Assembly: GCF_041435015.1 (NCBI RefSeq)
Contig: NZ_CP107989.1
Span: 5,642,001 to 5,706,000 of the forward strand
Reading direction: 5' to 3'
Source: Streptomyces canus
Lineage (GTDB): Bacteria > Actinomycetota > Actinomycetes > Streptomycetales > Streptomycetaceae
Length of the DNA: 64,000 nucleotides
A program made the position numbers and the translations under genes. Numbering within the stretch: the stretch's first letter is position 1; every line of letters begins with the position of its first letter. Positions 51,347 to 55,967 of this stretch are shown here, piece by piece. The notes below the pieces were generated by a model. It did not search any database. It was not told where the DNA came from and saw only the letters and a program-made list of their open reading frames with translations.

Positions 51347-51707
51347 TTCCCCTCCGCGCGTCCACCTCTATCTCGATCTTCATCCGAGGGTCGGCGAGGC
51401 CGCACACGAACATCGTGGCGGCCGGCCGGACATCGCCGAAGTGGCGGCGCAGGACCGGCCAGCAGGGCTCGAAGTCCTCCCGGTCGGGCAGCAAGTAGCG
51501 CACCCGCACCACGTCCGCGAAGCTGCACTCCGCCTCGGCCAGCGCAGCCCCGATGTTCCGCAGACACTGCTCGGCCTGCTCCACCACGTCGTCCGAGATC
51601 GTCATCGCGGCATAGTCGAACCCGGTCGTCCCGGACACGTGCACCCAGTCCCCGTCGACCACGGCGCGCGCATACCCGATGCGTTCCTCGAAGGAGGAGC
51701 CGCTCAT
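51330..51707 (-). CDS. RidA family protein
   Basis: A 125-residue RidA/YjgF/UK114 family protein. The core YARAVVDGDWVHVSGTTGFDY, then EQAEQCLRNIGAALAEAECSFADVVRVRYLLPDREDF, is diagnostic. Members hydrolyse reactive enamine/imine intermediates, protecting PLP enzymes, though this family has divergent branches. The ATG at 51707 (MSGSSFEER) is chosen; a start at 51728 is possible. Its promoter would lie in the same region as the structured RNA upstream of iscB. Confidence 0.85.
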   Translation of the reverse strand: MSGSSFEERIGYARAVVDGDWVHVSGTTGFDYAAMTISDDVVEQAEQCLRNIGAALAEAECSFADVVRVRYLLPDREDFEPCWPVLRRHFGDVRPAATMFVCGLADPRMKIEIEVDARRGSGDRV

Positions 51708-51837
51708 GATCGCTCGTCGCTTTGTCATGCACGGAACGCTAATCGTTGTCAGACCCTCCTGGCGGACAGGTCGGCTTGACGAGATCCCCTAGCAGGTGGA
51801 TCGACTACGCGTTCGGCTGTTTGGGATCTTTCGCACT

Positions 51838-51990
51838 GATGAGTGCCTTCTGGTGATTCAACCGATCGGCTGGCACTTGATCACTAACGTTGCAGGCGCA
51901 CCGAAGAGGGGAGGTCACTCGCTCCCCAACCGCACGGTTGTCGAGTGACCAGCCCCAGTCATCGCGATCCGCAAGATCAGGGAGGTGCCC
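51838..51990 (+). ncRNA. Candidate omega-RNA (HEARO) of the IscB system
   Basis: The region directly 5' of iscB contains nested inverted repeats. GGTCACTCG (51913-51921) pairs with CGAGTGACC (51942-51950), enclosing CAACCG-CA-CGGTTG (51927-51940). GGGGAG just before can alternatively pair with CTCCCC in the loop, a pseudoknot-like option. AGTGCC (51842-51847) pairs with GGCACT (51872-51877). IscB nucleases are guided by an upstream-encoded omega-RNA of the HEARO class, so this segment is the natural candidate. The RNA's ends and the guide cannot be fixed from sequence alone. Confidence 0.5.
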
Positions 51991-51992
51991 CG

Positions 51993-53624
51993 ATGACTAC
52001 GTTCCCCGCAGGCGAGCAGACCCACCAGGCTGTGCTTCCTCAGCAGCCTGCTCCGGAATCCGTGAGAGCAGACACCCCCGGGAGCAGGGACGAAACGGCT
52101 CACGGACACCCCGCCACCGCGCGAGGCACCGGCCGGGAACATGGGCGAGGGGAGACCGACGGGCGCGGCACCAGGCCCCGTCGGCGTCACGCCAAGAACG
52201 CTGCCACGGCAGCGGAGGCGGCAGAGAACGGAAGCGGTGAGGCTTCCCCGCACAACCCGCCATACGCGGGCGGCATCGGCGCGAGCAGGGTCTTCGTGCT
52301 GTCCAAGGAGGGGGACCCCCTCATGCCCTGCCATCCGGCTCGGGTCCGCGAACTCCTGGGCAAGGGGAGGGCTGTCGTCGCTCGACAAGTGCCCTTCACC
52401 ATCCGGCTGAAGGACCGGACACGCGCGGAATCCGAAGTCGACGGCGTCCAGTTACGCATCGATCCCGGTTCCAAAGGCACCGGTCTCGCCCTCACCGACG
52501 AGAAGAAAGAAGTCGATGAGCAAGGCACGGTCGTCACCGTCAGACGCGGCCTCGTAGCGGTTGAACTCCAGCACCGCGGCGACCAGATCCACAGATCCAT
52601 GCAACAGCGAGCCGGCTACCGACACCGCCGACGCTCCGCCAACTGCCGCTACCGAAAACCCCGCTCAAACAACCGAACTCGCCCCACAGGCTGGCTACCA
52701 CCCTCCCTGCGCCACCGTGTCGACACCACCTACTCCCAGGCCGCCCGCCTCTGCCGCTACGCACCCGTCACCGAGATCCACATCGAACGCGTAGCGTTCG
52801 ACACCCACGCCATCGGTGAGGGAAGAGCCCTCACCGCAAGCGAATACCAACAGGGCACACTCGCCGGAACCGAAGCCCGCGCCTACCTACGCGCAAAGTG
52901 GAACAACGCCTGCGCCTACTGTGATGCCACCGGCGTACCCCTGAACATCGACCACCTCAGACCTCGCAGCCGAGGCGGCTCCAACCGCATCTCCAACCTC
53001 GTCCTCGCCTGCGCCCCCTGCAACCAGGCCAAGAACAACACCCCCGTCGAGATCTTCCTCGCCGACCAGCCCGACCGGCTTGCGAAGATCGTCCGTCAGC
53101 TCAGAACGCCACTCCAGGACGCCGCCGCCATGAACGCGACCCGATGGCAGCTCACGGGGAGACTCAGCGACCTCGGCAGGCCTGTTCACGCCTGGTCAGG
53201 CGGTCGTACGAAGTGGAACCGAAGTGCCATGGGGCTGCCGAAGACGCACACCTTGGACGCGCTGTCCGTCGGGCGTCTGGACCATGAGAGCGGCGACGCC
53301 ATCGTGCGGTATCCCGGGCAGGTGCTCGTCGTCAGAGCGACAGGACGCGGGTCGTACGCCCGCACAACTCCGGACCGCTTCGGATTTCCGCGGCTCCGCC
53401 GAGCCCGTGCCAAACAGCACTTCGGGTACGTGACCGGCGATCTCGTACGGGCCGATGTCCCGACGGGCAAGTGGGCAGGCGCCTGGACCGGCCGCATCTC
53501 CGTCCGTGCAAGGGGACAGCACAGCATGGCGATGCCCGAAGGCCGTATCAACGTTTCCCACTGGAATCTGAAGCTGTTGCAGCGGGGCGACGGATACGGC
53601 TACAGCACCCGCCTGGAGCCTTAA
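51993..53624 (+). CDS. iscB: IscB RNA-guided HNH/RuvC nuclease
   Basis: A 543-residue IscB, the nuclease family ancestral to Cas9, carried by IS200/IS605-like elements. The PLMP domain starts near residue 100 (VFVLSKEGDPLMP, PLMP at 109-112). RuvC-I has Asp157 (RIDPGSKGTGLAL), followed by an Arg-rich bridge helix (YRHRRRSANCRYRK). RuvC-II has Glu265. The HNH (about 300-350) has Cys307/310, D320-H321 and C340/C343. RuvC-III has His419/Asp422 (HTLDALSV). All catalytic residues are present. A low-complexity extension of about 98 residues precedes the PLMP domain. GGGAGG precedes the ATG. Leu154 is a TTA codon. It needs the upstream omega-RNA to cut DNA. Confidence 0.85.
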   Translation: MTTFPAGEQTHQAVLPQQPAPESVRADTPGSRDETAHGHPATARGTGREHGRGETDGRGTRPRRRHAKNAATAAEAAENGSGEASPHNPPYAGGIGASRVFVLSKEGDPLMPCHPARVRELLGKGRAVVARQVPFTIRLKDRTRAESEVDGVQLRIDPGSKGTGLALTDEKKEVDEQGTVVTVRRGLVAVELQHRGDQIHRSMQQRAGYRHRRRSANCRYRKPRSNNRTRPTGWLPPSLRHRVDTTYSQAARLCRYAPVTEIHIERVAFDTHAIGEGRALTASEYQQGTLAGTEARAYLRAKWNNACAYCDATGVPLNIDHLRPRSRGGSNRISNLVLACAPCNQAKNNTPVEIFLADQPDRLAKIVRQLRTPLQDAAAMNATRWQLTGRLSDLGRPVHAWSGGRTKWNRSAMGLPKTHTLDALSVGRLDHESGDAIVRYPGQVLVVRATGRGSYARTTPDRFGFPRLRRARAKQHFGYVTGDLVRADVPTGKWAGAWTGRISVRARGQHSMAMPEGRINVSHWNLKLLQRGDGYGYSTRLEP

Positions 53625-53824
53625 GAGTCGGCATCCCGAAAAACCAGTTGATCGGCGCCGGAACCCTTCCTAGTGTGTGGTTCACGCCGAAGGGAGGTGA
53701 TCGGGTACATGAATGAAACCCGGACTAGCGAGGTGGCTGCGGGCTAGCGCCCGTCACCCACTGAGTGCGGTGCCGGACCCGCGTGTACGAGATGCACGCA
53801 GCCGGCCAATTCAACGCAGTCACC

Positions 53825-53897
53825 CGACCCGCGAGCTCGCCGGTACGTCCGGCCGGCTCCCTCGCCGCAAGGCAGAGGGACCAGAGCTCGCGGGTCG
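53825..53897. repeat. 14-bp inverted repeat with an inner hairpin after iscB
   Basis: CGACCCGCGAGCTC (53825-53838) and its complement (53884-53897) enclose a 45-base loop that contains a second hairpin of TCCCTC and GAGGGA. It ends 12 bases before the SIS gene stop (53910). It may be a transcription terminator, or the right end of the element that carries iscB. Confidence 0.6.
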
Positions 53898-53909
53898 TCT
53901 GCGTTCTGA

Positions 53910-54686
53910 CTATTGCCGGTAGAAGATCCGGTCCCCGTACTCCTCGAACACCCGCTCATTCCACTCCAGCCCGCCGTCCACGTTCCCCGACCGCAGCAGC
54001 GGCGGCTCGATCCCCCGTTCCGCCAGCGCTCCGGCCGCCGTCGCCATCACCGCCTGGAGCAGCGCCGAGGTCACGACCGTGGAGGCGGGGGCGAAGGGGG
54101 CCGGGATGGTGTCCAGGGAGAGTTCCGCGTCGCCGACGGCGATCTTGGAGTCGAGGACGACGTCGCAGTGGTCCTTGAGGAAGGTGCCGGAGCTGTGGCG
54201 GGGCTGCGTCTGCGTCGTATAGGCGACCGACGTGACGCCGATGACCTTCACGCCGAGGGAGCGCGCGGTCAGGGCCATTTCCACGGGGAGGGCGTTGCGG
54301 CCGGAGAGGGAGATGATCACGAGGGCGTCGCCCGCGCGGAGGGGCGAGCAGTTCAGGACCGCGCTCGCGAGGCCGTCGACGCGTTCCAGGGCGGAGCCGA
54401 GGGTGGCCGGCATGACGTCGACGCCCACGACTCCCGGGACGGTCAGCAGGTTCATGAGGGCGAGTCCGCCGGCCCGGTAGACGAGGTCCTGCGCGGCGAG
54501 CGAGGAGTGCCCGGCACCGAAGGCGAAGAGGCGGCCACCGGCGGCGACGGTGTCGGCGAGCAGCTCGCCGGCCGTCGCGACGGACTCGGCCTCCTCGTCC
54601 CGGACTCGTTGCAGCAGCTCGATGGCGGCGTCGAAGAACTGCCCGGACAGCTTGCCGTCAGCGCTCTCGGAGCCCGTCTCGCCCAT
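53910..54686 (-). CDS. SIS domain protein, UPF0309 family
   Basis: A 258-residue sugar-isomerase-domain protein, matching UPF0309 (SCO4393 in S. coelicolor, from memory). The SIS fold shows FAFGAGHSSLAAQDLVYRAGG and later DALVIISLSGRNALPVEMALTARSLGV. Proteins of this group are thought to isomerise or bind phosphosugars, possibly in amino-sugar metabolism. It is divergent from dmdR1 and ends next to the structured DNA downstream of iscB. Confidence 0.87.
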   Translation of the reverse strand: MGETGSESADGKLSGQFFDAAIELLQRVRDEEAESVATAGELLADTVAAGGRLFAFGAGHSSLAAQDLVYRAGGLALMNLLTVPGVVGVDVMPATLGSALERVDGLASAVLNCSPLRAGDALVIISLSGRNALPVEMALTARSLGVKVIGVTSVAYTTQTQPRHSSGTFLKDHCDVVLDSKIAVGDAELSLDTIPAPFAPASTVVTSALLQAVMATAAGALAERGIEPPLLRSGNVDGGLEWNERVFEEYGDRIFYRQ

Positions 54687-54804
54687 GCGTCGTCCAACCC
54701 TTCGTCGCCGTGTCGCGGATCACCGTGCGGTCTGGACCAGTGGGATGTCAATACGGCCGCACGCCTGGTCGTAACCGCTTGGTTTCAACGGCGCGGCACG
54801 CTTG

Positions 54805-55563
54805 TCAGTGGTATCCGGCAGAATTGGTGCCAGGGCCAGCGCACGCGCCGGGAAGCTGTCGTGCTTCCGGCAATCTCATCAAGGGGCACGTATGTCCGGA
54901 CTGATCGACACCACGGAGATGTATCTCCGCACCATCCTCGAGCTGGAGGAGGAAGGTGTGGTCCCCATGCGCGCCCGGATCGCCGAGCGGCTCGACCAGA
55001 GCGGGCCGACGGTCAGCCAGACCGTGGCGAGGATGGAGCGGGACGGGCTGGTGTCGGTCGCCAGTGACCGGCATCTGGAGCTGACGGACGAGGGCCGGCG
55101 GCTGGCCACGCGCGTGATGCGCAAGCACCGGCTCGCGGAGTGTCTGCTGGTCGACGTGATCGGTCTGGAGTGGGAGCAGGTCCACGCGGAGGCGTGTCGC
55201 TGGGAGCATGTGATGAGTGAGGCGGTGGAGCGCCGGGTGCTGGAGCTGCTGCGTCACCCCACCGAGTCGCCGTACGGCAATCCGATCCCGGGTCTGGAGG
55301 AGCTGGGCGAGAAGGACGGTGCCGATCCGTTCCTGGACGAGGGCATGGTGTCGCTGGCCGAGCTGGACCCGGGTCTCGACGGCAAGACGGTCGTCGTACG
55401 GCGTATCGGCGAGCCGATCCAGACGGACGCGCAGCTGATGTACACGCTGCGTCGGGCGGGTGTGCAGCCCGGTTCGGTGGTGAGCGTGACGGAGTCGGCG
55501 GGCGGGGTGCTGGTGGGCAGCGGCGGCGAGGCCGCGGAGCTGGAGTCGGATGTTGCCTCGCAT
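54805..55563 (-). CDS. Antisense ORF over dmdR1 (Adm-like)
   Basis: A 252-codon open frame on the strand opposite dmdR1, running almost its full length. In S. coelicolor an antiparallel gene called adm was reported to overlap dmdR1 and to affect siderophore and antibiotic production, and this frame is in the same arrangement. The composition is unusual (rich in His, Gln, Arg and Leu), with no recognisable domain. Long antisense frames also arise by chance in high-GC DNA, so the evidence for this copy is weak. Confidence 0.25.
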   Translation of the reverse strand: MRGNIRLQLRGLAAAAHQHPARRLRHAHHRTGLHTRPTQRVHQLRVRLDRLADTPYDDRLAVETRVQLGQRHHALVQERIGTVLLAQLLQTRDRIAVRRLGGVTQQLQHPALHRLTHHMLPATRLRVDLLPLQTDHVDQQTLREPVLAHHARGQPPALVRQLQMPVTGDRHQPVPLHPRHGLADRRPALVEPLGDPGAHGDHTFLLQLEDGAEIHLRGVDQSGHTCPLMRLPEARQLPGACAGPGTNSAGYH

Positions 55564-55584
55564 GTGTTCGTGGCCAAGCGCTGA
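54892..55584 (+). CDS. dmdR1: Iron-dependent repressor DmdR1 (DtxR/IdeR family)
   Basis: A 230-residue repressor. The DtxR-type HTH is at residues 25-50 (RIAERLDQSGPTVSQTVARMERDGLV). The metal sites are in the dimerisation domain (CLLVDVIGLEWEQVHAEACRWEHVMS, with Met, Cys, Glu and His ligands), and the SH3-like domain ends the protein. With Fe2+ it represses siderophore and iron-uptake genes; DmdR1 is the main streptomycete iron regulator (SCO4394 in S. coelicolor). The length is exactly as expected. The region upstream shows no obvious iron box. An antisense ORF covers it. Confidence 0.93.
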   Translation: MSGLIDTTEMYLRTILELEEEGVVPMRARIAERLDQSGPTVSQTVARMERDGLVSVASDRHLELTDEGRRLATRVMRKHRLAECLLVDVIGLEWEQVHAEACRWEHVMSEAVERRVLELLRHPTESPYGNPIPGLEELGEKDGADPFLDEGMVSLAELDPGLDGKTVVVRRIGEPIQTDAQLMYTLRRAGVQPGSVVSVTESAGGVLVGSGGEAAELESDVASHVFVAKR

Positions 55585-55772
55585 CGGTCGCCAGGGGGTT
55601 CAACTCCCGGGTCCTGTGGGGCAGTTGTGGCGTTCCTGAGCCTCTTCCCGGGGGCCGTCGACACCAAGATTCAGTGTGCGGAATCGCAGCGCTTCGACGC
55701 TTCCCGTGCGAGGCTGTCGCGTGGGGCATATGACCTGAGGGGGGCGGGCGGATGTGCCGTAGGCGTATGGAT

Positions 55773-55800
55773 GGCCCCGGCACCTTTCGGTGCCGGGGCC
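55773..55800 (+). terminator. 12-bp hairpin terminator after dmdR1
   Basis: GGCCCCGGCACC, loop TTTC, GGTGCCGGGGCC: a perfect 12-bp stem with a 4-base loop, about 190 bases after the dmdR1 stop. Confidence 0.8.
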
Positions 55801-55967
55801 GGTCCTCCCCTGTGCTGACCCGGAGCCCCGAGCTCTCAGGGTCATTCCCCTCGGACCGATTTCCCCGAGCGGTCCGCCTCCCGCTGAAGATCTCCCCTCG
55901 GCGGCGGCGATCATTCCTTGAGCGAGGTCACTCGAACGAGGGGTGTTGTCGTTCCGAGGGCCCATCT

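Follow-up and report, generated by a model that had tools for sequence, protein, structure and literature searches.

Putative homing by a chromosomal RNA-guided nuclease: an IscB of Streptomyces canus with a guide that fits the neighbouring small RNA Ms_IGR-5 as it occurs in other strains

A stretch of 64,000 nucleotides from the chromosome of Streptomyces canus (contig NZ_CP107989.1, positions 5,642,001 to 5,706,000; referred to below as the window) carries the gene of an IscB nuclease, a small relative of Cas9, with a candidate omega-RNA at its 5′ side and the gene of a small RNA (sRNA), Ms_IGR-5, directly downstream. Comparison of this locus with its relatives in the genus leads us to regard the element as probably a free-standing homing (allele-exclusion) nuclease that is guided by RNA and whose own target is resistant: its guide resembles the Ms_IGR-5 alleles of other strains, and matches the Ms_IGR-5 next to it at background. 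To our knowledge, the role of chromosomal IscBs without a transposase is poorly known, and the matches listed in the literature searched, which leaves many journals uncovered, included no report of homing by an IscB or of an IscB next to Ms_IGR-5. The coordinates of all features are collected in Table 1.

The genomes compared were 392 members of the genus with one genome per species, and within-species dynamics are therefore invisible. Guides and sRNAs were compared in 28 pairs, leaving out the repeats of one locus (L001, L078, L081, L086 and L103), a locus with guide and sRNA identical to those of L039 (L082), and loci with no readable guide-scaffold start (L013, L022, L046, L084, L085, L088 and L147); help was needed to position four of the 28 guides, that of L038 by hand and the others by sequence pattern. 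The best ungapped 16-nt match of these guides in the Ms_IGR-5 of other genomes had 0–3 mismatches, with 26 of the 28 at two or fewer, as compared with mean best matches of 3.9–5.0 mismatches for control 16-mers from around the guide, and in every case the best match sat immediately before GTG. For 26 guides the matched site is the start of Ms_IGR-5, and for the other two (L014 and L017) it lies about 36 nt deeper in the RNA, at a second site that they match exactly, again before GTG. Multi-base types such as ACACGAG, ACTTCGG and ACGCCG are seen in the guides of some strains and at the sRNA starts of other strains.

The L005/L007 guide followed by GTG was found exactly in 60 of the 392 genomes, with one match in each, while a reversed control pattern had one match in all. 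All 27 of the matches that could be compared with listed Ms_IGR-5 coordinates lay on Ms_IGR-5, and one further match was read in G247. None of the 60 genomes was among the 28 with iscB or a remnant of it at this site (hypergeometric P 0.008), and G220, G236 and G257 are among the few of the 60 with other iscB copies elsewhere. The guide of the window followed by GTG, with up to one mismatch allowed, was found in the 392 genomes only at the Ms_IGR-5 starts of G141 and G033 (one mismatch each, and GTG following) and at its own omega-RNA locus, which continues with GTC. In its own genome it has, besides the omega locus, three matches with 3 mismatches, none of them at Ms_IGR-5, and the reversed control has one.

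When the 28 guides were compared with their own Ms_IGR-5 region, the best match had 4–8 mismatches in all 28, and the mean number of mismatches was 5.9 for the real guides, 5.0–6.6 for the control 16-mers and 6.5 for shuffled guides, i.e., the fit of a guide to its own region lies within the range of controls and shuffled sequences and is therefore at background. None of the 28 own alleles came within 3 mismatches of its guide, as against a mean of 31% of 87 iscB-less alleles (non-match product 2e-6, with kinship ignored). To allow for kinship, the own allele of each of 24 carriers was set against the allele of the genome closest to it in rpoB, out of a set of 54. The guide fitted the allele of the relative better in 17 cases, equally well in 2 and worse in 5 (Wilcoxon P 0.005), with means of 4.3 mismatches to the neighbour and 5.9 to the own allele, and matches with 3 or fewer mismatches in 10/24 and 0/24, respectively. 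When the own sRNAs were permuted among the carriers, the number of good matches had a P value of 0.005 at 12 nt, 0.028 at 14 nt and 0.050 at 16 nt, and the best match anywhere had P values of 0.015 (all with at least 4 mismatches) and 0.037 (mean). In one pair, G104 and G252, which are 1.5% apart in rpoB and 3.2% in iscB, the guide of G252 is one mismatch from the sRNA start of G104, the own start of G252 differs, and the iscB of G252 is truncated.

The mechanism that we propose would begin when IscB and its omega-RNA recognise the Ms_IGR-5 of a strain without the element, either at its 5′ end or at the second site some 36 nt downstream; GTGR is the likely target-adjacent motif (TAM). Cutting would take place when both alleles share one cell, e.g., during chromosomal conjugation, and repair from the carrier chromosome would then copy the neighbouring iscB together with the resistant Ms_IGR-5 variant of the carrier. 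Two differences would spare the carrier itself: its own Ms_IGR-5 departs from the guide at the matched position, and its omega-RNA locus continues with GTC instead of GTG. Transcription of the omega-RNA, cleavage, the use of GTGR as the TAM and biased inheritance, or homing, are what we infer. As in free-standing homing endonucleases, the gene lies near the recognition site and outside it, its distribution is patchy with decaying copies and, judged by the fit of the guide sequence alone, element-less alleles carry the recognition sequence and the carrier allele does not.

Several observations weigh against a homing nuclease. The genome of the window is itself among the five cases in which the relative's allele fits worse, that of G140 having 6 mismatches and its own allele 5, and its guide has no exact partner in the sample; the guides of L018 and L039 have only partners with 3 mismatches, and some of the 28 pairs come from loci with a broken iscB. 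For the mean mismatch at a fixed position, permuting the own sRNAs gave P 0.16–0.21 (0.14–0.20 in a set of 26 pairs), and the support of the permutations for avoidance of the own allele is modest. The omega-RNA match of the window scores under the curated gathering score of Rfam and is thus not listed in a default scan, and the same holds for the scores of all 15 loci given to the model (the window and 14 relatives), which range from 42.2 to 74.8 bits and are all below 83. Finally, the distances in iscB and rpoB are correlated (Spearman 0.68 for 26 carriers), which suggests that much of the history of iscB has been vertical, and not one of frequent long-range transfer.

The protein was identified with NCBIfam model NF040563, “RNA-guided endonuclease IscB”, at 411.7 bits (cut-off 175), and the Pfam domains RRXRR and HNH are also above their cut-offs. 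IscBs of solved structure align with it by sequence through PLMP, RuvC-I, RuvC-II, HNH and RuvC-III, and the alignments show that PLMP, D157, E265, the HNH residues H321 and N335, and H419 and D422 are all kept (numbered from the ATG at 51993). By its residues the locus is a full-length and catalytically complete IscB, as the initial annotation had described it, and is the sole full-length copy in the 10.7-Mb genome, where the two other, weak matches each cover about 50 residues of the HNH region.

The same annotation had placed a candidate omega-RNA upstream of the gene, in the interval 51838–51990, and pointed to its strong pairing. The candidate omega-RNA was recovered in a 2.5-kb search with cmscan as an end-to-end alignment of the HEARO model (RF02033) at 52.7 bits (E 2.8e-9; gathering score 83), with the guide at its 5′ end, and most of it lies outside that interval, as it runs on to 52160 in the coding sequence. 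As to the covariation search that the annotation had asked for, 30 of the 60 consensus pairs in the alignment of the 15 loci have at least one compensatory change, at scores that stay under the gathering threshold. Where coordinates were compared (L004, L023, L026 and L033), the HEARO match likewise starts directly after the guide. The argument from pairing did not hold: a single-sequence fold of the region has no excess stability (z = -0.27), strong pairing alone is therefore no evidence for an omega-RNA, and fold stability was not used. Nor is position 51838 the boundary of a feature, since the insert relative to G140 spans 51746–53625. Many other carriers read TAGNNT at about the same distance from the guide as the TAACGT of the window. 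A motif, GCACTGATGAGTGC, at 51833–51846, about 65–80 nt before the guide, has CGCACGAATGAGCG-like counterparts in many carriers and is a candidate for a promoter element or an old element end.

The coding start was examined in an alignment of 18 loci, i.e., the window and 17 relatives. The ATG at 51993 is kept in 17 of them, the exception being L005, which has no ATG at this position and a stop within the upstream extension; a stop occurs at the position of the upstream GTG at 51945 in 5 of the 18. Net length changes in 51993–52289 are multiples of three, and in 51993–52160 the rate of change is low at all three codon positions (5–9%), as compared with the core of the protein, where third positions change at 32–44% and the others at 7–17%. 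The omega-RNA is thus read as doubling as the beginning of the iscB coding sequence.

Table 1. Position of the iscB element, its guide RNA and the adjoining sRNA gene in the window.
Feature	Position	Strand	Remarks
Complete insert (iscB with omega-RNA and its promoter region)	51746..53625	+	vs iscB-less G140 locus
-10-like hexamer TAACGT of presumed omega-RNA promoter	51885..51890	+	read from sequence
Guide, 16 nt, GCACCGAAGAGGGGAG	51898..51913	+	ends where HEARO begins
Omega-RNA scaffold (HEARO)	51914..52160	+	Rfam RF02033, model 1-211; opens GTC, not GTG
iscB Shine-Dalgarno AGGGAGGTG	51979..51987	+	read from sequence
iscB coding sequence	51993..53624	+	543 aa + stop; NF040563; first 56 codons overlap omega-RNA
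RuvC-I catalytic D157	52461..52463	+	alignments
RuvC-II catalytic E265	52785..52787	+	alignments
HNH H321	52953..52955	+	alignments
RuvC-III H419 and D422	53247..53258	+	alignments
Ms_IGR-5 promoter-like region AAAAACCAGTTGATCG	53637..53676	+	-10-like TAGTGT at 53671; same layout in iscB-less genomes
Own target site 1 TTCACGCCGAAGGGAG then GTG	53681..53699	+	7 mismatches to own guide at this position
Ms_IGR-5 small RNA (RF02471)	53682..53903	+	79.8 bits, gathering 45; presumed target gene of guides
Own target site 2 AACCCGGACTAGCGAG then GTG	53717..53735	+	L014 and L017 guides match site 2 in other genomes

The limits of the element were set by comparison with the iscB-less locus of G140, with which window positions 51615–51745 and 53626–55904 are collinear at about 95% (blastn), 45 nt lying between the two segments in G140. 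The element lies upstream of the Ms_IGR-5 promoter and outside the matched target site, the promoter region and gene beside it are intact, and the end of own site 1 is 72 nt past the iscB stop. This position ruled out another candidate explanation, in which the element had inserted into its target and carried with it a replacement of the sRNA start. The location among ordinary chromosomal genes, and the lack of an accompanying transposase, were as first annotated: there was no transposase among the four neighbour genes scanned, and no match to Y1_Tnp (PF01797) in the whole genome of the window (G000), a search that gave matches in 5 of 14 control genomes, other transposase types not having been searched genome-wide. 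In the loci of two close relatives of the window genome, L220 (G140) and L221 (G141), a ridA-like neighbour gene is partly deleted, and L035 has a rearranged neighbourhood, with the dtxR region upstream of the iscB locus.

A search of 199 genomes of the genus found the presumed target, Ms_IGR-5, in 196. A table in PMC8079986 lists it with RNA-seq validation for S. lividans TK24, PMC8780764 describes a transcription unit of S. avermitilis, classed as an sRNA, that matches it, and ribosome footprints on its mycobacterial homologues are described in PMC4974804. In the window, a strong Shine-Dalgarno-like stretch at the beginning of the RNA and an ATG that opens a frame of 12 codons are found at 53709–53747. 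Duplex energies give no more than moderate support to a helix of the sRNA 5′ end with the segment that precedes site 2 (P 0.08 with all 122 included, 0.008 for 53 distinct types and 0.010 for 28 carriers).

The gene iscB was found in 43 of the 392 genomes (E up to 1e-30), with Ms_IGR-5 beside it in the fetched locus in 26 of the 43. By alignment, 23 of 34 loci at the Ms_IGR-5 site have a full-length frame and 11 are broken or shortened, two of the 34, L039 and L082, having the same guide and sRNA and possibly being one species. D157, E265, H419 and D422 are kept in all 23 full-length loci and the HNH histidine H321 in 22, being replaced by Y in L006; L147 and L158 are iscB remnants, and only a remnant is left in G141, which rpoB groups tightly with G140 and the genome of the window. 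An rpoB tree built from 58 chosen genomes requires 18 changes of the iscB label, close to the mean of 19.6 for shuffled labels. The sRNA start differs by about 6 of 16 nt among carriers and, among non-carriers, by 2.3 in the 6 closest pairs and 4.4–5.0 beyond; with the non-carriers hand-picked, faster change among carriers is suggestive only. Other Streptomyces iscB lineages, at other loci (L023–L025; L033/L091; L089/L096), have the same or similar guides across species, which suggests that they have other fixed targets; their own flanks gave no close match to these guides. G257 has four iscB copies (L029, L097–L099) with differing guides.

IscBs have classically been linked with IS200/IS605-type (ISC) transposons, as stated in PMC9755519, and the order of guide and omega-RNA is that of such elements, so the locus could be the remnant of one, in which the guide recorded the flanking DNA at insertion and the nuclease guards the site of the element. 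This is unlikely, as G140 places the element upstream of the sRNA promoter and away from the matched site, the genome of the window lacks a Y1_Tnp match, and the neighbourhood is the same in 26 of the 43 iscB-positive genomes. The initial annotation had thought of domestication, and a host-serving defence, with the guide as protection from invaders bearing Ms_IGR-5, would agree with the purifying selection on the core of the protein. Broken copies are common, however (11 of 34), neither the 50,697 phage records nor the 72,556 plasmid records searched had a match to an iscB-less Ms_IGR-5 (L058), and the exact Ms_IGR-5 consensus string was not found in viral contigs, which leaves such a defence improbable. 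Since the element is patchy and often decayed, and since its guide fits the alleles of other strains, the comparison suggests that a selfish element suits the locus better than domestication in the service of the host.

A further explanation is that the likeness of guides and sRNA starts comes from a shared Shine-Dalgarno-like GGAG motif, or from a duplicated promoter start that drifts neutrally; (A/G)GGAG does end most guides and sRNA starts, and both follow a -10-like box. We consider this very unlikely, because two guides, those of L014 and L017, fit this RNA at another place, multi-base types appear on both sides in different strains, and the 16-mers flanking the guide have no such match. 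The ribonucleoprotein might also bind or nick its own Ms_IGR-5 gene through partial pairing and so tune it, a notion that draws on the adjoining position of the two genes and on the GGAG end common to guide and own site 1 in most pairs; with an own match no better than that of control and shuffled sequences, self-regulation of this kind is hardly to be expected.

A homing nuclease that is guided by RNA would share features with several known systems. With the IscB/HEARO (OMEGA) nucleases, e.g., OgeuIscB, the window element has in common the PLMP-RuvC-HNH architecture and, as a candidate, a HEARO-type omega-RNA 5′ of the gene, with the guide at the 5′ end of the RNA; it differs in its fixed chromosomal neighbourhood, in the lack of a Y1 transposase match in the genome, in a guide that fits the neighbouring gene as other strains have it, and in the overlap of the omega-RNA with the coding start. 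For SegF, SegG and SegB of phage T4, PMC2988022 describes “intronless homing”, with cleavage sites away from the endonuclease gene. As with the Seg enzymes so described, the nuclease gene lies beside its target and not inside it, and the alleles of non-carriers are the presumed substrate, whereas the specificity of the window element would reside in a fast-changing guide RNA, the setting is a bacterial chromosome and not a phage, and homing is here a proposal. A gene drive of insertion sequences in plasmids that is driven by TnpB is reported in PMC11870625, and there, too, an RNA-guided nuclease attacks copies without the element. TnpB as presented in that text belongs to IS200/605 elements and its guide records the insertion flank, in contrast to the window IscB, which has no Y1 transposase, a guide that is not the insertion flank, and a target of its own that is altered but still an intact gene.

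Sequence comparison gives the likely target of this IscB together with internal controls, i.e., the matches in other strains, the own copy at background and a second site before the same bases. If the interpretation as a homing nuclease is true, an RNA-guided nuclease can persist as a homing element through changes in the guide and in the copy of the target that it has beside it, this clade of IscBs would have a concrete TAM (GTGR) and target, and the strong variation among carriers at the start of an sRNA that is conserved in the genus would in part be explained. Whether the locus amounts to a gene drive that is guided by RNA and occurs naturally in a bacterial chromosome, with a guide reprogrammed over evolution against the current sRNA alleles of rivals, carriers that are resistant, an arms race between guide and target, and types that are swapped between lineages, we judge to be evenly poised.
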